In this document: positions 3,294 to 60,230 of the stretch, piece by piece
Layout: every line of letters begins with the position of its first letter
Numbering within the stretch: the stretch's first letter is position 1
DNA from: a virus
Length of the DNA stretch: 61,374 bases
Virus record (IMG/VR): IMGVR_UViG_3300009790_000009
Location: 1-61,374 of that record
Reading direction: 5' to 3' (one strand)
Translations under genes and position numbers: made by a program
Notes under the pieces: model-generated
The model's database searches: none
Told to the model about the DNA's origin: nothing
What the model saw: only the letters and a program-made list of their open reading frames with translations

Positions 3294-6200
3294 ATGGCGA
3301 ATTTAACAACTGATTTTAACGTAAGTCCTTATTACGACGACCACGATGAGTCAAAAAAATATTCACGTGTGCTATTTAAACCTGCTGTTGCTATTCAAGC
3401 GAGAGAGTTAACACAACTACAAACATTATTACAGGCACAGGTTGAAAGATTTGGTAATAATATCTATAAAGAAGGGACTATTATCGAAGGTTGTCAAATA
3501 ACTTTTGATGATTATTATTCATTCGTTAAAATTACTGATTTAGATACTGCAGGTGTTGTAGTAGCACCATCAACATATACTGGATACTTTGCAAAAGGTT
3601 CAACTACAGGTGTTGTAGCACAAGTATCAGCATACGCAGACGGTCTTGTATCACAGGATCCAAACTTAACTACTTTATATATTGATTATATTAAAGCAGG
3701 ATCAAGTGGTCAAAAAATATTTAATCATTCTGAAACAATCGAAATTCATTCAAGTGAATTTGCAAACGATTCAAGTCCAATAGCAACTATTACAGCTGCT
3801 GGTGGATCAATAACTACTGCAGCACAGGCAGTTGGTGATGCATTTGCAGTTCAGACATCAGAAGGTATAATTTATTCAAAAGGGCATTTCTTAAAAGTAG
3901 GTGCTAATACAGTTATTGCATCTAAGTATGACAGATATCCAGATAATGTGTCTGTTGGATTTAATGTTAAAGAAACAATTGTTACAGCAGATAGTGATAA
4001 CTCATTAAAAGATAATGCAGCTGGATTTAATAACGAAAATGCACCTGGTGCAGATAGATTAAAATTAGATCCTTATCTAGATGCTATTCCAACATCACAA
4101 GCAAGAGCAAATACAGACTTCTTAGCATTAGTTGATTTCCAGGCTGGTTTAGCTACATCAAAAAGATTTGATACACAGTGGAACTCTATTGGCGAAGAAA
4201 TGGCCAAGAAAACAAAAGAGACATCTGGAAGCTTTACAGTAACACAAAACCAATTTGCATCAGAATCAGCAAACACAACACACTTTAAAGTAGCAATTAG
4301 TCCAGGACTACATTATGTAAATGGACAAAGAGCAGAACAATTTAATACAACTAGAATAGCAGTTCCTAAAGCAATTGCTAATGCTAGTATGTCAGATGTA
4401 ACAGTAACTACAAACCAAGGTTATTATGTTGTATGTAAAGAATTAATTGGTAACTTTGCATCTAATACAATGCCAACTGTTTCATTAAGAGACACGGCTG
4501 GAACTTCAGTTACTGATGGTGATGCATTAAGTGTTGCACCAGGTAACGAAATAGGAACAGCAACATTACAAACAGTCATTCATTCTGAGGGTGGTAATAT
4601 AGCTAAGAATGCTACTTATAAAGTATTCTTAATGAATATTAAAATGAGTGCAGGAAAGAGATTCCATGAAGTTAGATCACTTCATGATTCTGGCGAAGGA
4701 ACAGCTGACATTGTTTTAGAGAATGATGGTATAAGAAATAAAGCTGTATTAAAAGAACAAGGCGCTACTATGATGTTGTGGCCTTTACCAATGCCAGCAA
4801 TTAAAGAAACAACTAGTGCTGATTTCATTTTTAGAACACAATCACAAGCATCAGTTTCATCATCAAACGTTATATCACTATCATTAGGATCAGGGTTATC
4901 ATTCCCTTATAGTGGTACTTTAACAGAAGAACAAAAGAAAGATTGGATTATAACTGCTAATACTACTGGATCAAATCTAGTACAAGGTGTACCATTATGG
5001 ACATCAGCAGCTAATATTCAAATATCAGGAACTACAGCCAATATAGATATTTCGGGCATAACTTCAGGAGCTCCATCTTCAGCATTTAATATTACATATA
5101 ATGCTAGGAAGGCTTCTGCTACACCATTAAAGAAAACAGAAAAGACCATATATGTCAAATTAGATACTGCTAACAATGCAGCAACAAATGCAGGACCATG
5201 GTCGTTGGGTGTACCAGATGTCCAATCAATTGAAGCTGTTTATATTTCTAATACATCAGTGTATGCTAACTCTACAGGATCTAGTTTTACTGACTCTAAA
5301 GACAACTTTATGTTAGAAGATGGTCAGAAGATTCAGCATTATGGATTATCAAATCTTTCATTGAAACCAGGTAATTCAGTAACATCAAATTATAAGATGT
5401 TAGTTAAATGTAAAGTATTTCAATCTGATTCCCCATCTGGAGGTGTTGGATTCTATACTGTATCATCATATAAACAATCAGATGGTACAACTGCATTAGA
5501 TCCAAGTGATATACCATTATTCGTTGATCAAGATAGAGGCAGATCATACGATTTAAGAAATGTTATTGATGGTAGACCTCAAGTAGCCAATACTGGAGCA
5601 TTTGGACTTACAGTAGCTGCAGCTACAATTAACCCAACTGCAACGGAAGCATTTACGTCAGCTGACCACTTTATAGCTTCCCCAGATCAACAGTTTACAA
5701 CAGATCTAGTTTACTACTTAGGTAGAATTGATAAGTTAATGATTACATCGACAGGGTATATTACTACCAAGAAAGGTGTACCATCATCTAAACCGATTCC
5801 TCCACAAGACGTGCCAGATTCAATGAACTTGGGTACAATAGTAGTACCTCCTTATCCTTCATTAACTTCTAATGAAGCAAGAAGTAAAAAACGAACAACA
5901 CAATCAGTTAAAATTAAGCCAGCAACTAATAGACGTTATACAATGTCAGAAATTGGTCAAATAGATAGAAGGCTTAAAAACTTAGAATATTACACAACAC
6001 TTAGTCAGCTAGAACAAAAAACAAGTAATATGGCTATTACTGATGCACAAGGTAATGATAGATTTAAAAATGGTATCTTTGTAGATCCAGCAACAGATTT
6101 AAATTCTTCAGATATAAGAAATAGAGAATTTAGATGTAAGGTTGATCCAACAGCATCAGTATTTCATCCACCTGCACCAAAAGATGATATAGATTTAGTT

Positions 6201-7640
6201 GTAGCTAATACATCAAATGTAATAGACCAAGACGGTCAATTCATGCTTAAAGCATCAGAGCACTTATTAAAAGAACAGACAGGTGCTACACATGCAAGAA
6301 CATGTACAGAATCATATTATAAACATTTTGGTTCAGTAAAAATATCCCCACCAATGGATAACGGTTATGATGTAACTGAAATGCCTACACAGGAAATTAT
6401 TAATGATACTGCAACAGGTGTTCAAGAATTGTTTGATGGTATTAATGAATTTTATCCATTAACTAGAACATCTACAGAACTTATTGGATCTGATGAACAA
6501 TCACAATCTGAATCAGAAGTAACCAAAGATCATTTCGATTATTACTGGCATGACTGGGATTACTATACAGGTTATAATGGTCATTGGCGTAATGATGGTT
6601 ACTATGGGCATTATGGTCAAGACTATGGATGGTATGGTTGGGGCTATGAAGGTTACGTAGAAACAACAACTACAACAACTACAACAGAAACAACAGATAC
6701 TTATTTAAAGACAACTGAACAATTGGCTATAGGTGTTAAAGAAACTACTGAAAAGGTAGGTGACTTTATAACTGATATATCATTCAATCCATTCATGAGA
6801 GCTAAAACAATTAAGATAGTTGCTTGGGGATTGAGACCAAATTTAAGACATTATTTCTATTTTGATAATCAGTCTATTGATGATAAAGTTAAAAAAGGAT
6901 TCCTTAATCCACCTGGCTGGACTAATGGTGAAGTTATCGGCAATGTTGCTGGAGGAATTCATCCTAAGTTCGTAGAACCAACAGGTACTAAAGGAGAAGC
7001 AGTCACAGCAGGTGCTCAAGGCATGCTCGCAGCAGTGTTCTATTTACCTGCTAGCACATTCCATGTCGGAGATAGAGAATTAGTTATTTCAGATTCTTCA
7101 TCACTAGCTGGCCTTAAAGGTTCTGTTTCTAAAGCAAGTGTTAAATATAATGCTTATAACTATAGCGCTGAGAAAACAGAATATACAATGACAACTAGAG
7201 CTCCAACATTTAGTATGTCATCTTCACACGACCAATATGAAGAAGTGACTGTAGATACACATACTGATGTAACATCTAATACATATTGGAGTTGGAATGA
7301 TAACTATTATGATCAATATTATTCAAATGGTTATTGGACATCTGATGGTCTTGTAATTAATAGCTATGCAAATTCATCAGTAAATACAATATGGGCAGAT
7401 TCAGAAATAGGAATTACTTCTATTAACGCAGCTGCATATACAGGATTGAATTTCTCATATGATGCAACAGACTTAAAAGTATATCCTAATACTACTACCA
7501 CAACAACAGGAACAGGTGATAAAGCTACAGGAGCTATTACAGGATCCGGAGGCGGAGCTAATAATTATAGTTATGTCGATGACTTCGCGAAGAATTGGAC
7601 TGATGGAACGTTCAATCTTATGATAGGGGGAATATTCTAA
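3294..7640 (+). CDS. Giant baseplate/tail structural protein with DUF4815-like N-terminus
   Basis: This 1448-residue protein begins with a segment matching the DUF4815 family of marine T4-like phages (KYSRVLFKPAVAIQARELTQ near residue 23, then QVERFGNNIYKEG). Family members are virion structural proteins near the baseplate and fibre genes; the exact role is not established. The middle holds beta-rich repeats. Around residues 1080-1122 there is a Tyr/Trp/Gly/His-rich stretch followed by a run of eight Thr, and a second aromatic-rich stretch lies near 1329-1352. The start is ATG 3294, eight bases after the gp8-like stop; the next gene starts on its last base (TAATG). By position it occupies the gp9/gp10 slot of T4, but I cannot show orthology. 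Confidence 0.7.
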   Translation: MANLTTDFNVSPYYDDHDESKKYSRVLFKPAVAIQARELTQLQTLLQAQVERFGNNIYKEGTIIEGCQITFDDYYSFVKITDLDTAGVVVAPSTYTGYFAKGSTTGVVAQVSAYADGLVSQDPNLTTLYIDYIKAGSSGQKIFNHSETIEIHSSEFANDSSPIATITAAGGSITTAAQAVGDAFAVQTSEGIIYSKGHFLKVGANTVIASKYDRYPDNVSVGFNVKETIVTADSDNSLKDNAAGFNNENAPGADRLKLDPYLDAIPTSQARANTDFLALVDFQAGLATSKRFDTQWNSIGEEMAKKTKETSGSFTVTQNQFASESANTTHFKVAISPGLHYVNGQRAEQFNTTRIAVPKAIANASMSDVTVTTNQGYYVVCKELIGNFASNTMPTVSLRDTAGTSVTDGDALSVAPGNEIGTATLQTVIHSEGGNIAKNATYKVFLMNIKMSAGKRFHEVRSLHDSGEGTADIVLENDGIRNKAVLKEQGATMMLWPLPMPAIKETTSADFIFRTQSQASVSSSNVISLSLGSGLSFPYSGTLTEEQKKDWIITANTTGSNLVQGVPLWTSAANIQISGTTANIDISGITSGAPSSAFNITYNARKASATPLKKTEKTIYVKLDTANNAATNAGPWSLGVPDVQSIEAVYISNTSVYANSTGSSFTDSKDNFMLEDGQKIQHYGLSNLSLKPGNSVTSNYKMLVKCKVFQSDSPSGGVGFYTVSSYKQSDGTTALDPSDIPLFVDQDRGRSYDLRNVIDGRPQVANTGAFGLTVAAATINPTATEAFTSADHFIASPDQQFTTDLVYYLGRIDKLMITSTGYITTKKGVPSSKPIPPQDVPDSMNLGTIVVPPYPSLTSNEARSKKRTTQSVKIKPATNRRYTMSEIGQIDRRLKNLEYYTTLSQLEQKTSNMAITDAQGNDRFKNGIFVDPATDLNSSDIRNREFRCKVDPTASVFHPPAPKDDIDLVVANTSNVIDQDGQFMLKASEHLLKEQTGATHARTCTESYYKHFGSVKISPPMDNGYDVTEMPTQEIINDTATGVQELFDGINEFYPLTRTSTELIGSDEQSQSESEVTKDHFDYYWHDWDYYTGYNGHWRNDGYYGHYGQDYGWYGWGYEGYVETTTTTTTTETTDTYLKTTEQLAIGVKETTEKVGDFITDISFNPFMRAKTIKIVAWGLRPNLRHYFYFDNQSIDDKVKKGFLNPPGWTNGEVIGNVAGGIHPKFVEPTGTKGEAVTAGAQGMLAAVFYLPASTFHVGDRELVISDSSSLAGLKGSVSKASVKYNAYNYSAEKTEYTMTTRAPTFSMSSSHDQYEEVTVDTHTDVTSNTYWSWNDNYYDQYYSNGYWTSDGLVINSYANSSVNTIWADSEIGITSINAAAYTGLNFSYDATDLKVYPNTTTTTTGTGDKATGAITGSGGGANNYSYVDDFAKNWTDGTFNLMIGGIF

Positions 7641-15184: not shown

Positions 15185-18043
15185 GTGGCGAATCCTTTAA
15201 AAATTAATACAAGTTCAGGTCAACCAAATACCACAAACTGGTCTGGCCTAAAAACAATGTCTGCAGCAGAGATGGACTATGCTTGTTATAAAATCCTTAC
15301 AAATTTCGCTACCGAAGCTAACTCAACTACATCTTATGTTGGTGATTTAAATACAATAGGCCTTGGTACTTCAAGAGGTGCTTACACAGATCAACGTTTT
15401 CAAGATGCAGTTGGCACTCACCCCTCAGCCGCATCCACTAATACTGTAGTAACAACTTTTTATCAAAATACTGATAGTGCATCAGAAACTAGTTTGATTA
15501 GACCATTAGAATGGCAAACCGGTGGACCTAAAGAACAAACAGACACTACTTTAAATAATTCTATTATAGATAGATGTTTAACTAAAATTGCAAATACATC
15601 TTCAGCTGCAATTGGTGAATATTATATTGATTCAACTGCTCCAGCAGGTGGAACATGGACAGAAGAAAAATCATTTACTGATACCTTAACTGCATCTGAT
15701 GGTACACATGCTACTTGGAAGCTTTGGAGAAAAACTTCTGATACCGCCCCTACAACAGTAAGACCTATTAAATGGTCTAATGGTGAAGGTCAGGATGGTA
15801 TTAATGAAATGACTGATACTGAGATTAATCATCTCACAGCTAGATTAAGAAATAGAATTATAGCTACTGGTGTTGGTACTTATGCATTTCAAGCTTCAGC
15901 ACCGGGAACAGGAACATGGACTCAAGTATCTGGTAATATAACAGATAATCAAGCTTCAATTGTAGCTACACAATATTCAGGACAATATACTGGAACATTC
16001 GGTAGACAGTTTGCCAGAACTTATTCAGCTCAATACGCTAGACAATTTACTAGAATATATTCAGCACAATATGGTAGACAGTTTGCCAGAACTTATTCAG
16101 CTCAATACGCTAGACAATTTGCTAGAACTTATTCTGCAGGCTATGGTCGACAATTTGCTAGAACATATGCAGGACAGTATGCAAGACAATTTACTAGAGT
16201 ATATCTAGGTCAATATCTTAGAGCTACAGATGGTCCTCAATACACAGTTCAATATACAAGAAATACTCCTGGACCACAATATACAGTTCAATATACAAGA
16301 ATAAATCCTGGACCTAATTACACTGATGGCCAATATACTAGAGCTACGCCAGGTCCTCAATATACTTCACAGTATGATAGAGCTACACCTGGACCTAATT
16401 ACACTGATGGTCAATATGCTAGAGCTACTGGTGGACCTCAATATACAGTTCAATACGCTAGAACTTATGCAGATCAATATACTGTTCAATATGCCAGAAC
16501 TTATTCTGCACAATATTCTAGACAGTTTGGTAGAGTATATTCAGTTACTTATGCAGTTCAATATGCAAGGGTATATTCAGTTAACTATGCTGTAAACTAT
16601 ACAAGACAATTTACAAGAGTAAGACCAGGACCTAATTATGCAGTTAACTATGGTAGATCAAGACCAGGACCAGCATACGGTGTTGCATATGGTAGATCAA
16701 GACCAGGACCAGCATACGGTGTTGCATATGGTAGATCAAGACCTGGACCTAGTTATTCTGTAGGATATACTGTTAACTATGGTAGAGTCTATTACGGATC
16801 TTATACAGTAAACTATGGTAGAGTATATTATGGATCCTATACAGTAAACTATGGTAGAACTTATTCTGGATCCTATACCAGTAACTATGGTAGAGTATAT
16901 TCTGGTAACTATGCTGGACCTGCTTATCAAAGACAAACTCTACATGAATTTTTTAATCCATGGAGTTATGAACCATATTTTAGATGGATAAATGGACCAA
17001 CTTATGGTGGTGGTAACTTTGCTAGGTCTAGACCAGGACCTGCTTATGGAGTATCATATGGTAGATCTAGACCAGGACCTGCTTATGGAGTATCATATGG
17101 TAGATCTAGACCTGGACCTGCTTATGGAGTATCATACGGTAGATCAAGGCCAGGACCAGCTTATGGAGTGCAATATTCTAGAAGCTTTGGTAGAGTCTAT
17201 TATGGATCCTATACTGTAAACTATGGTAGAGTCTATTATGGACAATATACTGTAAACTATGGTAGAGTCTATTCTGGGTCTTATGCTGTTAACTATGGTA
17301 GAACTTATTCTGGTCAATATAGTGGATCGGCATATGCTGTAAACTATACTAGACAAACTGGTGGACCACAATATACAGTAAACTATACTAGAATAAATCC
17401 TGGACCACAATATACAGTAAACTATGATAGAGCTACACCTGGTCCTCAATATACTGTTCAATATACTAGAGCTACTGGTGGACCTCAATATACTGTTCAA
17501 TACGCTAGAACTTATTCTGCACAATATGCTAGGCAGTTTGGTAGAATATATTCAGCACAATATGGTCGACAATTTGCTAGAACATATGCAGGACAGTATT
17601 CAAGACAATTCGGAAGAGTTTATTCCGTTCAATATACAATACAATATACTAGAGTATACGCTGGACAATATACAATACAATATACTAGAGTATATGGTGC
17701 TCAATATGATAGAGCAAGACCTGGACCTGGTTATTCCGACGGTCAATATACCAGAGCCACACCAGGACCTCAGTATAATATAGATTATGCTAGAGCGACT
17801 CCTGGTCCTCAATATACGGGAGATCAATATGCTAGAGCTACTGGTGGACCACAATATACTTCACAGTATGATAGAGCGACTCCCGGACCTAATTATACTG
17901 ATGGCCAGTATACTAGAGCTACTGGTGGACCACAATATACAGTGAATTACACTCAACAGTTTACAGGACAATATACTGGAGATACAGTGACATCAACTCC
18001 TGCGCTTAATAGTACATTAAAACTATGGCTTAGGGTTGCATAA
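15185..18043 (+). CDS. Tyr/Arg tetrad-repeat structural protein, paralog 2
   Basis: A 952-residue paralog of the preceding protein, with the same layout: an N-terminal domain (~1-260, NPLKINTSSG; LRNRIIATGVGTYAFQASAP), a long repeat array and a shared C-terminal tail (LKLWLRVA). The array is more regular here: RQFARTYSAQYARQF-type tetrads, PGPQYTVQYTRAT blocks, and near-identical RSRPGPAYGVAYG blocks in tandem around nt 16640-16745 and 17030-17170. A unique segment near residues 580-605 (HEFFNPWSYEPYFRW) divides it in two. The start is GTG 15185, in a leader containing GGGGAAAGTGA, also present before the fibre gene at 28628. Likely a virion surface protein; function unknown. Confidence 0.6.
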   Translation: MANPLKINTSSGQPNTTNWSGLKTMSAAEMDYACYKILTNFATEANSTTSYVGDLNTIGLGTSRGAYTDQRFQDAVGTHPSAASTNTVVTTFYQNTDSASETSLIRPLEWQTGGPKEQTDTTLNNSIIDRCLTKIANTSSAAIGEYYIDSTAPAGGTWTEEKSFTDTLTASDGTHATWKLWRKTSDTAPTTVRPIKWSNGEGQDGINEMTDTEINHLTARLRNRIIATGVGTYAFQASAPGTGTWTQVSGNITDNQASIVATQYSGQYTGTFGRQFARTYSAQYARQFTRIYSAQYGRQFARTYSAQYARQFARTYSAGYGRQFARTYAGQYARQFTRVYLGQYLRATDGPQYTVQYTRNTPGPQYTVQYTRINPGPNYTDGQYTRATPGPQYTSQYDRATPGPNYTDGQYARATGGPQYTVQYARTYADQYTVQYARTYSAQYSRQFGRVYSVTYAVQYARVYSVNYAVNYTRQFTRVRPGPNYAVNYGRSRPGPAYGVAYGRSRPGPAYGVAYGRSRPGPSYSVGYTVNYGRVYYGSYTVNYGRVYYGSYTVNYGRTYSGSYTSNYGRVYSGNYAGPAYQRQTLHEFFNPWSYEPYFRWINGPTYGGGNFARSRPGPAYGVSYGRSRPGPAYGVSYGRSRPGPAYGVSYGRSRPGPAYGVQYSRSFGRVYYGSYTVNYGRVYYGQYTVNYGRVYSGSYAVNYGRTYSGQYSGSAYAVNYTRQTGGPQYTVNYTRINPGPQYTVNYDRATPGPQYTVQYTRATGGPQYTVQYARTYSAQYARQFGRIYSAQYGRQFARTYAGQYSRQFGRVYSVQYTIQYTRVYAGQYTIQYTRVYGAQYDRARPGPGYSDGQYTRATPGPQYNIDYARATPGPQYTGDQYARATGGPQYTSQYDRATPGPNYTDGQYTRATGGPQYTVNYTQQFTGQYTGDTVTSTPALNSTLKLWLRVA
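15967..17975 (+). repeat. Tyr/Arg-rich tandem coding repeats (paralog 2)
   Basis: A long array of 12-base-period units encoding aromatic-x-x-x tetrads. It includes DNA-level tandem copies of a 39-base unit encoding GRSRPGPAYGVAY/SY around 16640-16745 and 17030-17170, and a GRVYYGSYTVNY unit around 16780-16860 and 17190-17260. All units stay in frame. Confidence 0.85.
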
Positions 18044-52815: not shown

Positions 52816-53360
52816 AGATCAATTTAATATATGGTACGGAGACCGGATATACTGAACTCATCGGTGAAGATATAATGGAACGATGGGTAAGAGCTTGGCC
52901 GGATGATGATTTTAAAATAGTAAGAGTAGATGAGACTATACCAGAAGATTGGAAAGCGGATCTATTAATATTAGGAGCACCTACATGGTGTGAACCAAGA
53001 CTAGAAGTTTTGGGGGAGCTAAGTGAAGATTGGAATGGTGAGATGGATGACATCAAGAAAAGAGACTTCACTGGACAGAAAGTAGCAATATATGGTTTAG
53101 GAGATCAACATGGTTATGGTGATAACTTTGTTGACGGTTTGGGTTTATTAGCTAAACCTATTATCGAAAATGGAGGAACCATTATTGCTACAACCTCTAC
53201 AGCAGGATATAGTTTTACTGAGTCTTATGGACTTATAGATAAAGACACATTTTATGGTTTGGCAATAGATGAAGACCAACAAGCCAATAGAACAAACGAC
53301 AGAATTATAAATTGGTTACATCAAATAGAACGAGAATTATATGACGGCGATAGGACATAA
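52812..53360 (+). CDS. Flavodoxin
   Basis: A 182-residue long-chain-type flavodoxin. The FMN phosphate loop is TETGYTE (9-15), and the isoalloxazine-contact loops are GAPTWCEPRLE and YGLGDQHGYGDNFVDG. It carries one electron at low potential. A possible local client is the radical-SAM enzyme QueE encoded next, since such enzymes need a flavodoxin-type reductant. It overlaps deformylase by four bases and QueE by 20. Confidence 0.92.
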   Translation: MKINLIYGTETGYTELIGEDIMERWVRAWPDDDFKIVRVDETIPEDWKADLLILGAPTWCEPRLEVLGELSEDWNGEMDDIKKRDFTGQKVAIYGLGDQHGYGDNFVDGLGLLAKPIIENGGTIIATTSTAGYSFTESYGLIDKDTFYGLAIDEDQQANRTNDRIINWLHQIERELYDGDRT

Positions 53361-54252
53361 CCAGAGACAATACGCTTACTCTGAAATCTTTGATTCAATA
53401 CAAGGTGAAGGACATTATACCGGCCGTCCTACAGCATGGTTAAGATTTTTCTTATGTAATTTACAATGTAATGGATTTGGTCAAGACGATCCAACGGATC
53501 CAGATTCGTATGAACTTCCATATAAAGACTTTGAGGGTATGGAAAAAATAAAGGTTATGACAGACTTACCTGTATGGGAGAAAGGTTGTGATAGCTCTTA
53601 TTCTTGGTCTAGAAAATTTAAACACCTACAACATAAAGAGACTGCGGAAGAGATAGGTGATAGAATTAGAGCTGAATTTACAAATGAACATAATGATGGC
53701 AAGTGGTTAGAAAGACATATGTGTTTTACAGGTGGTGAACCTTTGATGAAACATGCACAACAGTGTAGCATGGATGTTATGAAATATTGGATAGAGGAAA
53801 GAGACTTTCCTAGATATGTAACATATGAAACTAATGGAACACAAGTCTTAAGAGATGATTTTAAAGAATTTTGGATGGAATACAGAGACGTTTGGGGAGG
53901 TGAATTATTCTTCTCTTGTAGCCCAAAATTATGGAATGTAGCAGGTGAGAAAACAAAACGTGCTATCAGACCAGAAGTGGTAGCTGAATACTGTCAAATA
54001 ATAACTCCAGGTAAAGGTCAATTGAAGTTCGTAGTGAACGGAACACCTGCATGCTGGGAAGAGTTAGATGAGACAATAGAAAAATTCAGATACTATGGAG
54101 TGGATTGGCCAATATGGATAATGCCTGTAGGGGCTACTGTAGAAGGTCAAAAATTAGTAGATGGTGATGTAGCCGCAGAAGCCTTTAAAAGAGGTTATAA
54201 TGTTAGTGCCAGGGTACACACCTATCTCTGGGGCAACTTAATTGGAGTATAG
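53341..54252 (+). CDS. queE: 7-carboxy-7-deazaguanine synthase QueE (radical SAM), divergent
   Basis: A 303-residue radical-SAM enzyme. EIFDSIQGEGHYTGRPTAWL and CFTGGEPLM are QueE signatures. It converts 6-carboxytetrahydropterin to CDG in the preQ0 pathway. The iron-sulfur motif is unusual: Cys39 and Cys43 (CNLQC) are followed not by x2-Cys but by a ~39-residue insertion before Cys83 (GCDSSYSW), which aligns with the usual CDTKYAW end of CX3CX2C. The protein is also longer than most QueEs (~220 residues). Likely active if Cys83 completes the cluster. Confidence 0.88.
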   Translation: MTAIGHNQRQYAYSEIFDSIQGEGHYTGRPTAWLRFFLCNLQCNGFGQDDPTDPDSYELPYKDFEGMEKIKVMTDLPVWEKGCDSSYSWSRKFKHLQHKETAEEIGDRIRAEFTNEHNDGKWLERHMCFTGGEPLMKHAQQCSMDVMKYWIEERDFPRYVTYETNGTQVLRDDFKEFWMEYRDVWGGELFFSCSPKLWNVAGEKTKRAIRPEVVAEYCQIITPGKGQLKFVVNGTPACWEELDETIEKFRYYGVDWPIWIMPVGATVEGQKLVDGDVAAEAFKRGYNVSARVHTYLWGNLIGV

Positions 54253-54805
54253 TAAAACAACAATTCTTAATGATGATGAAGTAAAATATCTACGAGATGA
54301 ATTATTACCATCATTAGAAGTTACTAGGCTTCGAAGATACTATAACTTATTCTATTGTGATAAGATAGGTATACCTCAAGGCATCCCAGAATTTAAAGCA
54401 ATATCAGAAAAACTTTTAAACGGCGCAGGTGATAGTACAGGCGTATACTCTCATTACTTTATGAGATATAAGCACCCATCTTTCGTTAGAAGACATGCTG
54501 ATAATGCAGATGAAGTCTCTAACACTCTAATAACTCTTCTTCAAGAATGTGAAGAAGGTGGTGAAACTATTATATATGGCGTTCATCGTAAAGATGATTA
54601 TCCTTGGGAGGATGACTCAGACGTTAATAGATATAATAAGGGGGATGATTGTATAGACGATCCAATTATTCCATTAGTTATGAAACAAAGTGTAGGTGAA
54701 ACATTAATATATGATCGAGATGTTCTACACGAGGTCGCGCAAGTTCAAAAAGGTGAACGAATAGTCTTGGTCAGCTGGTTTAAAAATGAGCAAAGAAAAA
54801 ATTGA
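54242..54805 (+). CDS. 2OG-Fe(II) oxygenase-like protein
   Basis: A 187-residue protein with the 2OG oxygenase residue set: RRHADNADE (His85, Asp87), CEEGGETIIYG core strands, VLHEVAQV (His163) and GERIVLVSWF (Arg173). An ~35-residue acidic insertion lies between the strands (PWEDDSDVNR). The start appears to be TTG 54242, overlapping queE by 11 bases; no in-frame ATG exists near it. It sits within the deazaguanine-pathway operon, so modification of a base or intermediate is possible but unproven. Confidence 0.75.
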   Translation: MEYSKTTILNDDEVKYLRDELLPSLEVTRLRRYYNLFYCDKIGIPQGIPEFKAISEKLLNGAGDSTGVYSHYFMRYKHPSFVRRHADNADEVSNTLITLLQECEEGGETIIYGVHRKDDYPWEDDSDVNRYNKGDDCIDDPIIPLVMKQSVGETLIYDRDVLHEVAQVQKGERIVLVSWFKNEQRKN

Positions 54806-55256
54806 ATATTCATACGAACAGTTTGAAGAAGGTATCGATAAGATACGTGATAACATTTTAGCACTAGGTAATCCATTTAATAGAATAGTTGGTGTATGTA
54901 GGGGTGGACTTTTCCCTGCAACTAGGTTATCATATATGTTAAAGTTACCTTTGACTACATTATCTTGGTCCCTCAGAGATTACAATTCAGAAAGAGAATC
55001 TTTAGAGTGGTTAGCACAAGACATTAATGCAGGTCAAAAAATATTGTTAGTCGACGATATCATTGATAGCGGAGAAACAATTAATAGTATCCTAGCAGAC
55101 TGGGATGCGAATGTAGGAGGTACATTAGACAGAGAAAATATTTCTATTGCTACATGTATCTATAATATGGACTTAGAGATTACTCCCGATTTTTGGGATC
55201 AAGCAATCTCTAGAAAAGAAGATCAACGATGGGTTGATTTTTGGTGGGAGAAATAA
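54786..55256 (+). CDS. Phosphoribosyltransferase-family protein
   Basis: A 156-residue type-I phosphoribosyltransferase. The PRPP-binding motif is ILLVDDIIDSGET (86-98), with the GVCRGGLFPATRLSYML loop near 36-52. The hood region (TLSWSLRDYNSERE) resembles xanthine/guanine enzymes. It could salvage a purine or a 7-deazapurine base to its nucleotide; its position between queE and queD makes the second possibility interesting. It overlaps the upstream gene by 20 bases and abuts queD. Confidence 0.85.
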   Translation: MSKEKIEYSYEQFEEGIDKIRDNILALGNPFNRIVGVCRGGLFPATRLSYMLKLPLTTLSWSLRDYNSERESLEWLAQDINAGQKILLVDDIIDSGETINSILADWDANVGGTLDRENISIATCIYNMDLEITPDFWDQAISRKEDQRWVDFWWEK

Positions 55257-55712
55257 ATGCATAAGAGTACAAAAACATATGGACATCATGAAGGACTATC
55301 ATGTGTCTTTAGACAACCTAATGCAGATCATTCTCATTGCAGCTTATTACATGGATATGCTTTATCCTTTAGGTTTGAATTTGGTTGCAATGAATTAGAT
55401 GAAAGAAACTGGGTTGTAGATTTTGGCGGTCTTAAAGAATTGAAGCAATGGTTAAAGGATAGCTTTGATCATAAAACTGTCTTAGATACTGCGGATCCAA
55501 AGAAAGGACTTATAGAAGCACTAGTGCCTGAAGGCATTGCTGAAGTAGTATATTTCGATGGAGTAGGATGTGAGAAGTTTGCAGAACATGCTTTAAAGAA
55601 AGCTGATGAAATAGTTCAAAGAATAACAGGTGGAAGATGCTATTGTATATCATGTGAAGTATCAGAACATGGTGCAAATAGCGCGATATTTTTAAGAGAA
55701 GATTTCGATTAA
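55257..55712 (+). CDS. queD: 6-carboxytetrahydropterin synthase QueD (PTPS family), HGY variant
   Basis: A 151-residue PTPS/QueD-fold protein. The active-site Cys and zinc region are CSLLHGYALSFRFEF: Cys28 and His32 are placed as expected, but the second His of the usual HGH is Tyr34. FDHKTVLD provides the catalytic Asp/His pair and SCEVSEHGANSAIFL the Glu near the C-terminus. It converts dihydroneopterin triphosphate to 6-carboxytetrahydropterin after FolE. It starts directly after the phosphoribosyltransferase stop. Confidence 0.85.
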   Translation: MHKSTKTYGHHEGLSCVFRQPNADHSHCSLLHGYALSFRFEFGCNELDERNWVVDFGGLKELKQWLKDSFDHKTVLDTADPKKGLIEALVPEGIAEVVYFDGVGCEKFAEHALKKADEIVQRITGGRCYCISCEVSEHGANSAIFLREDFD

Positions 55713-55753: not shown

Positions 55754-56176
55754 ATGAGTGTGAATAAGTTTAGTATTGATTGGCAGATTTGTAGGGTGAG
55801 AGCTCGTAGTATAAAAGATGTCGACAATAAAATTAAGTTTGTGATTAGTTTTCTAGAGACTTATAGATCTAAAGAAAATGTAGAACGCGTGCTTAATTGG
55901 CTAAAGATGACGCGAGTCGGTTATAAAGACGAAGCGATCAGAAAGAAATTCGATAGAGTTATAGATGATGTTAAAGTGACAGGTCTAGACTATTTCGAGA
56001 AAGATAATGTAAATGATCTAAGTTGTGTATCTGATGAAGATATAGAAATGGTATTAAAAGATCTGAATAAAAGAAAATATGGATTTCAGTTTAATAAAGT
56101 ACCAAAAGATCATGTTAAATTTGTTTCAGCTTTAGAGGCTGAATTGGAGATCAGAAATGATAGTAAATGTTGGTGA
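55754..56176 (+). CDS. Unknown early protein
   Basis: A 140-residue charged, mostly helical protein (SIDWQICRVRARSIKDVDNK; KENVERVLNWLKMTRVGYKD; DEDIEMVLKDLNKRKYGFQF). I do not recognise the family. ATG 55754 is preferred over an upstream in-frame TTG at 55718, because that TTG is inside the -35 element. It is the first gene of the last operon and is probably translated from a leaderless transcript. A regulatory or host-takeover role would fit its position but is a guess. Confidence 0.65.
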   Translation: MSVNKFSIDWQICRVRARSIKDVDNKIKFVISFLETYRSKENVERVLNWLKMTRVGYKDEAIRKKFDRVIDDVKVTGLDYFEKDNVNDLSCVSDEDIEMVLKDLNKRKYGFQFNKVPKDHVKFVSALEAELEIRNDSKCW

Positions 56177-56666
56177 GACATTCCCTTCTTTTGAAATAGA
56201 TGTAGTGAATGCAGACAACGAGATGGTTAAAGAAACCGTCGAACCAGATGGTCAGTGGAAAGTAATATACTTCTATCCTAAAGACTTTACTTTTATATGT
56301 CCAACTGAAATTTCAGATATGGATAAGCTTACAGGAAAAGCAAGAGTTATGGGAATCTCAGGTGATAATGAGTTCTGTAAATTAGCTTGGAAACAATCAA
56401 ACGAATTGATAGGATCTATCAAACATAGTTTGGGTGCAGACACAGGTCTTAATATATCAAGACAAATTGGTGTCGTTAATCCAGAAGCAACAGTATGCCT
56501 AAGAGCTACTTATATTCTAGATGGTGCTAGTAAGGTTAAGCATGTATCAGTAAATGAACTTGACACAGGTAGAAATGCAGATGAAATTCTTAGAACTTTT
56601 GAAGCATTACAAGCTGGCGGTCTTACAGGATGCGCATGGCAGCCTGGTGATGATTTTGTAGCGTAA
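56157..56666 (+). CDS. Peroxiredoxin (AhpC/TSA family)
   Basis: A 169-residue thiol peroxidase. The peroxidatic motif is FYPKDFTFICPTE with Cys48; a C-terminal GCAWQPG provides a candidate resolving Cys159. It lacks the longer C-terminus of typical two-Cys PrxI enzymes, resembling shorter AhpC-type proteins. It would reduce hydroperoxides during infection. It overlaps the upstream gene by 20 bases and the next by one. Confidence 0.92.
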   Translation: MIVNVGETFPSFEIDVVNADNEMVKETVEPDGQWKVIYFYPKDFTFICPTEISDMDKLTGKARVMGISGDNEFCKLAWKQSNELIGSIKHSLGADTGLNISRQIGVVNPEATVCLRATYILDGASKVKHVSVNELDTGRNADEILRTFEALQAGGLTGCAWQPGDDFVA

Positions 56667-57442
56667 TGAATAACACATTAATTAGCGTAGAGCTTCCTAA
56701 ACAATTATTTTATAAACATGATGACTATAATGATTGTGCGTTTGTATTATTGCATAAGTTATTAGAGGATCCTGTTTATGAAGACTTCTATACCAATTAT
56801 AAAGGGTTTAAAATATTAGATAATAGTTGTTACGAATTAGGCGAGTCTATGTCTAATGAAACCTTGGCAGAATGGGTTACAAAAATTAATCCAAATGTTT
56901 TTATCTTACCTGATAAGTTAGGAGATATGGACGTTACTGTTCAAAGATCAATGAATTTCTTAGAACAATATCCCTTCTTTAAAGATAGAGCAATGCCGGT
57001 GGTTCAAGGTAGCACAGTAGATGAATTCTTCCAGTGCTATCAATATTTCAGAGATGAGATTAAGCCTGAGTTTATTGGGATCCCATTTTGTTTTCCTTGG
57101 ATAGAACCTTGGGACGATGGAGAACAACAAGCTCAAGAAAGAGTCAATCTCCTTCATGCACTAGATAAAAATGGAGCTGTAGATAAAACTATCAAGCATC
57201 ATCTATTAGGTACATGGAGAGTTTTTGAATATGAGTTTTATAAAGACTTTGATTGGGTTTATAGTATTGATACTAGTAATCCTATTGCAGCAGCATTCGA
57301 AGGAACAAAGTATGAAGCTCATGGTTTAGATTATAAACCAAAAATTAAGTTTGATGAGTTTTACGAGAAAGAAATTTCCCGTGACATTCTGAATACTTTT
57401 AAGTATAATATGAAAAGATTGAGGAGTATAGTAAATGGCTGA
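56666..57442 (+). CDS. TGT/DpdA-like 7-deazaguanine base-exchange enzyme (probable)
   Basis: A 258-residue TIM-barrel-like protein. The segment order resembles the tRNA-guanine transglycosylase superfamily: LDNSCYELGES (Asp52), NVFILPDKLGD, AMPVVQGSTVDEF (QG at 114-115), EFIGIPFCFPW, HLLGTWR, and VYSIDTSNPIAA with Asp202 as candidate nucleophile. I see no C-terminal Zn-binding CxCxxC motif, which tRNA-acting bacterial TGTs have; DNA-acting DpdA proteins of phages differ from those. With FolE, QueD, QueE, QueC and an amidotransferase nearby, insertion of a preQ0-derived base into phage DNA is the best hypothesis. Confidence 0.6.
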   Translation: MNNTLISVELPKQLFYKHDDYNDCAFVLLHKLLEDPVYEDFYTNYKGFKILDNSCYELGESMSNETLAEWVTKINPNVFILPDKLGDMDVTVQRSMNFLEQYPFFKDRAMPVVQGSTVDEFFQCYQYFRDEIKPEFIGIPFCFPWIEPWDDGEQQAQERVNLLHALDKNGAVDKTIKHHLLGTWRVFEYEFYKDFDWVYSIDTSNPIAAAFEGTKYEAHGLDYKPKIKFDEFYEKEISRDILNTFKYNMKRLRSIVNG

Positions 57443-57686
57443 TAAAATTAATCCACAGCATTATCAAAATAGAAATGATAATCTGCAAGTAATTGATGTG
57501 ATAGAACAATTTAATTTGAACTTTCATAGGGGCAATGTTGTTAAGTATGCTATACGTGCCGGTCGTAAAGACGAACAGGGTTATGAAAACCTTGAGAAGG
57601 CGATTGAAGATCTTGAAAAAGCTAAGTGGTATTTGGATAGACAGATACTTGATTATAGAAATTTAATGGAGAAAAGCGATGATTAA
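57435..57686 (+). CDS. DUF3310 family protein
   Basis: An 83-residue protein with the DUF3310 pattern: INPQHYQNR at the start, VIDVIEQFNLNFHRGNVVKY, and AIRAGRKDEQGYENLEKAIE. The family is common in phages; the fold resembles MazG-like helices and a nucleotide-related role is suspected but not established. It overlaps both neighbours by 8 bases. Confidence 0.85.
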   Translation: MADKINPQHYQNRNDNLQVIDVIEQFNLNFHRGNVVKYAIRAGRKDEQGYENLEKAIEDLEKAKWYLDRQILDYRNLMEKSDD

Positions 57687-58699: not shown

Positions 58700-58828
58700 A
58701 TGACAAGAGCTTGGAGAAAGAAAAATATACAAGGTCGAAGACAGGTTGCTTTAGATAATTTATTAAAGGTTAAAGAACCTAATAAAAGACAATTGAAAGA
58801 AATTGAAACAATACAAAAGAGATTATAA
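58700..58828 (+). CDS. 42-residue basic protein
   Basis: A short ORF from ATG 58700, two bases after the previous stop, ending in a TAATG overlap with queC. The product is strongly basic (TRAWRKKNIQGRRQVALDNL; KRQLKEIETIQKRL) and probably helical. It may bind nucleic acid; this is only compositional. Confidence 0.55.
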   Translation: MTRAWRKKNIQGRRQVALDNLLKVKEPNKRQLKEIETIQKRL

Positions 58829-59592
58829 TGGATTTACAAACGGCTTTAGATAGATTACCAGATACTAATAAGAATGTATTAGCAGTATTGTCTGGAGGAT
58901 TAGATTCCTCTGTAATGACAATGATGTTGGTAAAGAAATATGGCGCTAATGCAGTATCAGCCATTAGTTATGACTACGGACAGAAACAAAGAGTAGAGTT
59001 GGAAAAGGCTTTTGAACTTTGTAATAAGTTAGGTATTTCACATAAGATTTTAAATTTAGATATTTTAGGTGAAATAGCTAGACCGATGTCTGCTAACATA
59101 GGCGGTACAGATATAGCTATGCCTAATATTAAAGACGTTTTAGGGGATCCACAACCCCCGACATATGTTCCTTTTAGGAATTTAATAATGTTGTCTCTAA
59201 CAATGAGTGCAGCAGAAGTGGCAGGTGCAAGTCATGTATTCACAGGACTACAAGTTCATGATGAATATGGATACTGGGATACTAGTCAAAAGTTTGTTGA
59301 TAGTATTAATGCAGTAGCAGCACAAAATAGAACATTTAAAGTAGAAGTCCTTGCTCCTTTTAGTGAGATGAGCAAGCAACAGGAAATTGAATTAGCAATT
59401 GAGATGGATCAATTTGATTTATTGGGTAGTACAATAAGTTGTTATGATCCAGATAATGGTAAGTCTTGTGGCGTATGTCCAACATGTGCAGAAAGAATAA
59501 TGAACTTTATTCGAACAAGAACACAAGATCCAATTGAATATGTAGAAGGATTTGATTGGAGTACTGTAGTATCTAAGTATGAGGTGACATAA
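58828..59592 (+). CDS. queC: 7-cyano-7-deazaguanine (preQ0) synthase QueC
   Basis: A 254-residue ATP-pyrophosphatase-family enzyme. The PP-loop is SGGLDSS (22-28). Zinc ligands are Cys205, Cys214, Cys217 and Cys220 in SCYDPDNGKSCGVCPTCAER. YDYGQKQRVELEKA is also typical. It converts CDG to preQ0 with ATP and ammonia. It is followed after only five bases by a class-II amidotransferase gene; in some phages the two activities are fused (Gat-QueC). Confidence 0.96.
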   Translation: MDLQTALDRLPDTNKNVLAVLSGGLDSSVMTMMLVKKYGANAVSAISYDYGQKQRVELEKAFELCNKLGISHKILNLDILGEIARPMSANIGGTDIAMPNIKDVLGDPQPPTYVPFRNLIMLSLTMSAAEVAGASHVFTGLQVHDEYGYWDTSQKFVDSINAVAAQNRTFKVEVLAPFSEMSKQQEIELAIEMDQFDLLGSTISCYDPDNGKSCGVCPTCAERIMNFIRTRTQDPIEYVEGFDWSTVVSKYEVT

Positions 59593-59597
59593 ATAAT

Positions 59598-60230
59598 ATG
59601 TGCGCTATATTTGGAAGCTACGATCAGGAAAAGCTAGAGGAACTAGCAGAGCTTAATAGTTATAGAGGGCAATTGTCTTATAGTATAAGCGAATTTGACC
59701 CTAAAACCAAACAATTATTCCTGAAGCGAAAGAGTATGGGAGCCTTTAGTCTTGAGCACGTGCAGCTCAATGACGGGATGTATAAAATCGCCCACATCCA
59801 GGCCCCGACCACCGCGGCTTCTGCCACAGCAAGCATTCACCCGAGCGCGCGCAATGAGGACGGTGATCTTCTGTGGCATAACGGTATTCTAAAGGAATCT
59901 TTTGTAGAGCATATGCAAAAGGCCCTAGACTCTGATGAAGAGTGGGACACTGGTCTATTACATGACTGGATCCTAACTGGAAAAGAGTTGAGCGAGGTTG
60001 ATGGAACCTTCGCTTGTGTAAGATGTAATAACTATGATATGAGAATATTTCGAAATGAAATTTCTCCCATGTTTTACGACGGGAACCTAAATATTAGTAG
60101 TACCAAATTTGAGGGATCCCAATCCCTTCCACCCAATAAAATATTTGTTATGGACTTTAATAAACGTGATCTTTTAACAGTATCCACATTTACAACAAAA
60201 GAAAATCCATACTACTTTGGAGATGAATAA
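59598..60230 (+). CDS. Class-II glutamine amidotransferase-like protein (stand-alone Gat)
   Basis: A 210-residue Ntn-type glutamine amidotransferase domain. After Met removal, Cys2 (MCAIFG) would be the nucleophile. SYRGQLSYS, LLWHNGILKES and LSEVDGTFACVR match the usual RGxD, NG and GxFA regions. No synthetase domain is attached. Adjacent to queC, it probably supplies ammonia, as in phage Gat-QueC proteins that lead to amidine-bearing deazaguanine (archaeosine-type) DNA bases. A ~120-base stretch (about 59761-59880) is markedly GC-rich relative to its surroundings. Confidence 0.8.
   Translation: MCAIFGSYDQEKLEELAELNSYRGQLSYSISEFDPKTKQLFLKRKSMGAFSLEHVQLNDGMYKIAHIQAPTTAASATASIHPSARNEDGDLLWHNGILKESFVEHMQKALDSDEEWDTGLLHDWILTGKELSEVDGTFACVRCNNYDMRIFRNEISPMFYDGNLNISSTKFEGSQSLPPNKIFVMDFNKRDLLTVSTFTTKENPYYFGDE

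Follow-up and report, generated by a model that had tools for sequence, protein, structure and literature searches.

The described enzymes close to the protein analyzed here include DpdA1 of Enterobacteria phage 9g, DpdA2 of Vibrio phage nt-1, the bacterial DNA preQ0 insertase DpdA (PDB 7ui4) and bacterial tRNA-guanine transglycosylase (TGT). A further family was reportedly named DpdA3 by Cui et al. in 2023 and linked to complete replacement of G, and Crippen et al. are said to have found in 2019 that firehammerviruses carry 100% dADG. Campylobacter phages of the CP220 group have been reported to be highly modified by dADG, and in the 2019 listing Campylobacter phages appear with preQ0 genes and dADG-rich DNA and without a DpdA (PMC6884629).

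We have analyzed a 61,374-bp linear IMG/VR record (the window, i.e., the whole stretch of DNA) of a virus known from this metagenomic fragment. It carries T4-like genes, and its capsid gene is ca. 75–77% identical to those of Methylophilales phage Melnitz and Pelagibacter phage HTVC008M. One of its open reading frames (ORFs) very probably codes for a compact DpdA3-like phage DNA-guanine transglycosylase that would exchange G in the phage DNA for a 7-deazaguanine:

56666..57442, + strand: probable DNA-guanine transglycosylase of the DpdA3-like phage family (PHROG 19058), 258 aa, assigned from the ORF, AlphaFold/Foldseek, alignment and tree

The ORF runs from an ATG at 56666 to a stop at 57442, exactly as the preliminary description had delimited it, and the opposite strand is full of stops and non-coding. 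Its start overlaps the stop of an upstream peroxiredoxin gene (TAATG), and a DUF3310 gene (57435) begins within its 3′ end. These overlaps at both ends resemble a co-translated operon and make expression of the ORF plausible. Elsewhere in the window (15185–18043) there is a 952-aa ORF that consists for the most part of tandem repeats of 36 and 39 bp (16001–17940); its product is probably a structural or fibre protein of repetitive build.

Family, active site and predicted fold

Searches with the single 258-aa sequence gave no match in Pfam, NCBIfam or the PDB, and its profile match was PHROG 19058, annotated as “unknown function”. By tblastn we found the family in 24 phages. In Flavobacterium phage immuto the gene bears the annotation DpdA; in the Campylobacter firehammerviruses and in the Bacillus and Weizmannia phages it is for the most part called hypothetical. 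A scan by pattern and tblastn showed relatives in at least 529 viral contigs. The protein had been put forward as a divergent TGT/DpdA-like candidate; the likeness stands, but it is no lone candidate or new kind of enzyme, being a member of an already known family that is large in phages. A scan of cellular genomes gave 13 loci. All of the contigs concerned belong to assemblies that are uncultured or binned; the likely source is phage contigs binned together with cellular ones, and therefore we claim no cellular copies.

The segments LDNS, VVQG, FIGIPF, LLGTW and IDTSNP, from which a TGT-like active site had been proposed, do follow each other in this order in the translation (L51-D52-N53-S54, V112-V-Q-G115, F136-F141, L180-W184 and I201-P206). 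An extra motif had been overlooked, LPDxLGD around Asp83, which corresponds to the second active-site Asp of TGT (E. coli D143). Over 43 aligned homologues, reaching down to ca. 23% identity, the invariant residues were E9, H30, D52, N53, S54, E57, P82, D83, R159, H179, G182, D202 and P206, with Q114 and G115 nearly so. We aligned the family by L-INS-i and E-INS-i, unforced in both cases, together with six DpdA1 proteins, five DpdA2 proteins and the TGT of E. coli, and the active-site codons could be assigned as follows:

56819..56821, + strand: Asp52, aligned with D89 of E. coli TGT and D72 of 9g DpdA, invariant in the 43 sequences
56912..56914, + strand: Asp83, aligned with D143 of E. coli TGT and D114 of 9g DpdA, invariant in the 43 sequences
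57005..57007, + strand: Gln114 (of VVQG), aligned with Q187 of E. coli TGT; phage DpdA1 has His
57269..57271, + strand: Asp202 (of IDTSNP), predicted nucleophile, aligned with D264 of E. coli TGT and D215 of 9g DpdA, invariant in the 43 sequences

In the same alignments G182 pairs with G245 of E. coli TGT. The corresponding TGT residues act as nucleophile, as general acid/base and in base recognition. The proposed order of the active site (Asp52, Gln114, Asp202 on D89, Q187, D264) was thus recovered, with Asp202 falling on the nucleophile and Asp52 on the other catalytic Asp. When the family was aligned with DpdA1 alone the matching catalytic residues were found again. With DpdA1 removed (TGT and DpdA2 only) the columns of D52 and D83 slipped, while those of Q114, G182 and D202 held. 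The family and phage DpdA1 have 12 conserved columns in common, against 7 for the reversed family and 2–6 in 12 column-shuffled controls, i.e., the agreement in catalytic residues exceeds chance.

The AlphaFold2 model, built from 42 family members, had a pLDDT of 94.4 and a pTM of 0.91, and predicts with high confidence a TIM barrel of the TGT type, as the preliminary description had expected. Compared to the PDB with Foldseek, nearly all of the 50 listed matches were TGT or DpdA structures, including 7ui4. Matches to the TGTs and to 7ui4 had a probability of 1.00 and E values of 4e-7 to 1e-5 (about 1e-7 to 1e-6 for the best ones); the TM-scores were moderate (0.5–0.65 of the query), as expected at ca. 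11% identity. Among viral models (BFVD) the best matches were uncharacterized proteins of phages, among them Cellulophaga phage phiST (TM 0.84), followed by phage “queuine tRNA-ribosyltransferases” and the 464-aa protein of nt-1. PdxJ, a TIM barrel of the generic kind, is scored by Foldseek as well, and one might suspect an unrelated barrel enzyme in which the order of the motifs is coincidental. The predominance of TGT and DpdA among the listed matches, the coincidence of catalytic residues beyond the shuffled controls and the preQ0 gene cluster that recurs around the homologues leave this idea with a negligible probability, and at the level of prediction it is refuted.

The links to known enzymes are fainter by sequence. 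In a PDB profile search the match to a known DpdA had an E value of 0.016 with 8 sequences, weakening to 0.22 with 43, so that we take it only as a lead. The PADLOC DpdA profile gave 0.0064 at best. With hhalign, little could be learned from the sequence of 9g or of nt-1 taken singly; small profiles did better, and the family against a small DpdA1 profile gave a P value of 1.6e-4. Nothing in the window matched the Pfam TGT family (PF01702) above the cut-off, against 14 of 14 in the control genomes. As had been noted earlier, the 258-aa protein has no CxCxxC zinc motif, which E. coli TGT carries at position 302, and neither has any of the 43 family members. However, the motif is equally absent from the 11 phage proteins checked (six DpdA1 and five DpdA2), and for this reason its absence cannot serve as a distinguishing trait.

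Relationship to the known DpdA types

This family, with the protein gp056 of the Campylobacter Firehammervirus CP220 in it, is presumably the DpdA3 of Cui et al. 2023 (NAR 51:9214). The CP220 protein is 31.6% identical to that of the window over 98% of the length (HMM E value 5.5e-85), also has 258 aa and the same active-site residues, and is the only transglycosylase detected in CP220, a phage that has QueC and QueD. The window differs in belonging to a separate marine T4-like subgroup and in having DUF3310, QueC and a glutamine-amidotransferase-like (Gat-like) gene directly downstream. Phage immuto gp64, annotated as DNA guanine transglycosylase DpdA, shares 32.5% identity over 98% and lies in a QueD-QueE-phosphoribosyltransferase-FolE cluster. 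In contrast to the window fragment, where no QueF was found, immuto has QueF, which points to preQ1.

DpdA1 of 9g and DpdA2 of nt-1 share with the window protein the aligned catalytic Asp residues, the preQ0 cluster and the lack of CxCxxC. However, they are longer (300–464 aa against 258 aa), their profiles do not cross-detect, and in the tree the family, DpdA1 and DpdA2 form three separate supported groups (support 97/98 and 100/97 for the separation from DpdA1); the branches are very long and the tree serves for grouping only. Membership in DpdA1, whose profile had no match in the DpdA3-like phages, and in DpdA2, whose profile matched only nt-1 among 11 phages, is accordingly rejected. The window protein forms a pair with L001, to which it is 77% identical; CP220 and immuto belong to a different, supported group of 24 rows. 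The resemblance to the bacterial DpdA of 7ui4 and to bacterial TGT lies in the fold and in an HLLG...S-D segment aligned by profile search. Both are larger proteins, and TGT has the zinc site that is lacking here.

The distribution among 11 phages bearing QueC was exclusive. Eight carried the family and none of these eight matched DpdA1 or DpdA2, while 9g had only DpdA1 and nt-1 only DpdA2, an indication that the family enzyme fills the transglycosylase slot. Vibrio phage 2.275.O has QueC, a Gat-like gene, FolE, a QueF-type reductase and a COG1738 transporter, and no match to DpdA1, DpdA2 or the DpdA3-like family; two of its large hypothetical genes (4331–6121 and 6149–7261) may hide another transglycosylase. 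Two variants occur in other contigs. One is a 428-aa ORF (L057:3304-4590) in which ca. 155 additional residues at the N-terminus precede the transglycosylase; it has no Pfam match and looks GIY-YIG-like by eye only. The other (L063:567-1370) is a second TGT-like protein near a DpdA3-like gene, with LDSGGF and VHLLG and, as read by eye, apparently no Asp at the nucleophile position.

With a fold and an active site that are those of TGT, the enzyme might act on host or phage tRNA, in which case the gene cluster would boost queuosine in tRNA and leave DNA unmodified. Such a role has been proposed for phages with preQ0 genes and no DpdA, but QueA, QueG and QueH were not found in these viruses (PMC6884629). 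The protein itself has no zinc subdomain and scores under the Pfam TGT cut-off, and its family includes CP220, of the Campylobacter phage group with dADG in its DNA. We consider action on tRNA very unlikely. For DNA as the substrate, which the preliminary description had suggested, the gene context and the relatives in 7-deazaguanine phages give support, and it is from these that we infer it.

The preQ0 cluster and its neighbors

The transglycosylase gene lies among the following genes, all on the same strand:

53341..54252, + strand: QueE-like 7-carboxy-7-deazaguanine synthase (radical SAM); NCBIfam QueE N-terminus match E 1e-9, under the curated cut-off; QueE-like genes also found beside homologues
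54786..55256, + strand: purine (xanthine-guanine type) phosphoribosyltransferase; PF00156; NF006613 XPRT E 2e-11, under cut-off; PDB 1vdm E 2e-7
55257..55712, + strand: QueD-like 6-carboxytetrahydropterin synthase; PF01242 E 8e-13; TIGR03367 E 3e-9
57435..57686, + strand: DUF3310 protein overlapping the end of the transglycosylase gene; PF11753
57679..58359, + strand: GTP cyclohydrolase I, FolE; PF01227 E 1e-53; TIGR00063 above cut-off
58828..59592, + strand: QueC, preQ0 synthase; PF06508 E 1e-48; TIGR00364 above cut-off
59598..60230, + strand: stand-alone class-II (Ntn) Gat-like protein adjoining QueC; weak PurF match, 4e-4

The cluster also contains a 2OG-Fe(II) oxygenase-like gene (54242–54805) and the AhpC-type peroxiredoxin gene (56157–56666), each present in one further related locus. 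Over 86 homologous loci, many of which are short contigs, QueC was present at 65 and FolE at 63, DUF3310 at 50 and the Gat-like gene at 43, QueD at 32 and QueE at 24. preQ0 genes also surround the family gene in Bacillus phage BSP7 and Weizmannia phage Youna2. Two contigs encode a fusion protein in which a DUF3310 domain follows the transglycosylase at the C-terminus (L031:3751-4812 and L037:3797-4858), which together with the adjacency in the window suggests a functional link between the two.

Enzymes of the TGT fold that act on protein do exist (PMC11996544), and the target here might not be a nucleic acid, as in the Cap10 family of type IV CBASS, which attaches deazaguanine to protein. Yet there was no CBASS gene among the annotated neighbors, and the ORF lies amid phage replication genes and a complete pathway to preQ0. 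This makes a target of that sort highly improbable compared to DNA.

A phosphoribosyltransferase within the preQ0 cluster was also found in immuto and in one marine relative, and could salvage the guanine displaced from DNA. A universal linkage is rejected, PF00156 being present in only two of the eight DpdA3-like phage records tested besides the window. The Gat-like protein may decide which 7-deazaguanine is made. Its orthologues adjoin QueC in nt-1, Vibrio phage 2.275.O and marine relatives; here too a universal linkage is rejected, since the gene was in three of the eight DpdA3-like records and yet also in nt-1 and Vibrio phage 2.275.O, both without the family.

Proposed reaction and implications

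In the mechanism that we propose, FolE, QueD, QueE and QueC of the cluster would convert GTP to preQ0, and a base exchange like that of TGT on tRNA would take place in the phage DNA after replication. Asp202 would attack C1′ of the deoxyguanosine and guanine would leave, by way of a covalent Asp202–C1′ intermediate, to be replaced by a 7-deazaguanine base (preQ0 or a derivative) held by Asp52, Asp83 and Gln114. The Gat-like neighbor may supply ammonia to QueC or convert preQ0 to an amide or amidine (ADG or G+). DNA modified in this way would resist host restriction enzymes.

A bolder scenario, doubtful in our view, would extend this to the marine T4-like phages as a widespread group. The compact enzyme would swap all or most G for 7-deazaguanine, the amidotransferase-like partner would set the base, and in some of them the gpt-like phosphoribosyltransferase would return the tens of thousands of guanines displaced per genome to GMP.

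Most of the sequenced family members still carry the label hypothetical (PHROG 19058, “unknown function”, and the Campylobacter, Bacillus and Weizmannia phages). With 258 aa and no zinc subdomain, the protein is among the smallest TGT-fold enzymes in this comparison and a convenient scaffold for biochemistry. If G were replaced as completely as it reportedly is in firehammerviruses, restriction and cloning of the phage DNA would be affected. With the family recognized, hundreds of contigs of uncultured viruses stand out as probable modifiers of DNA with 7-deazaguanine.
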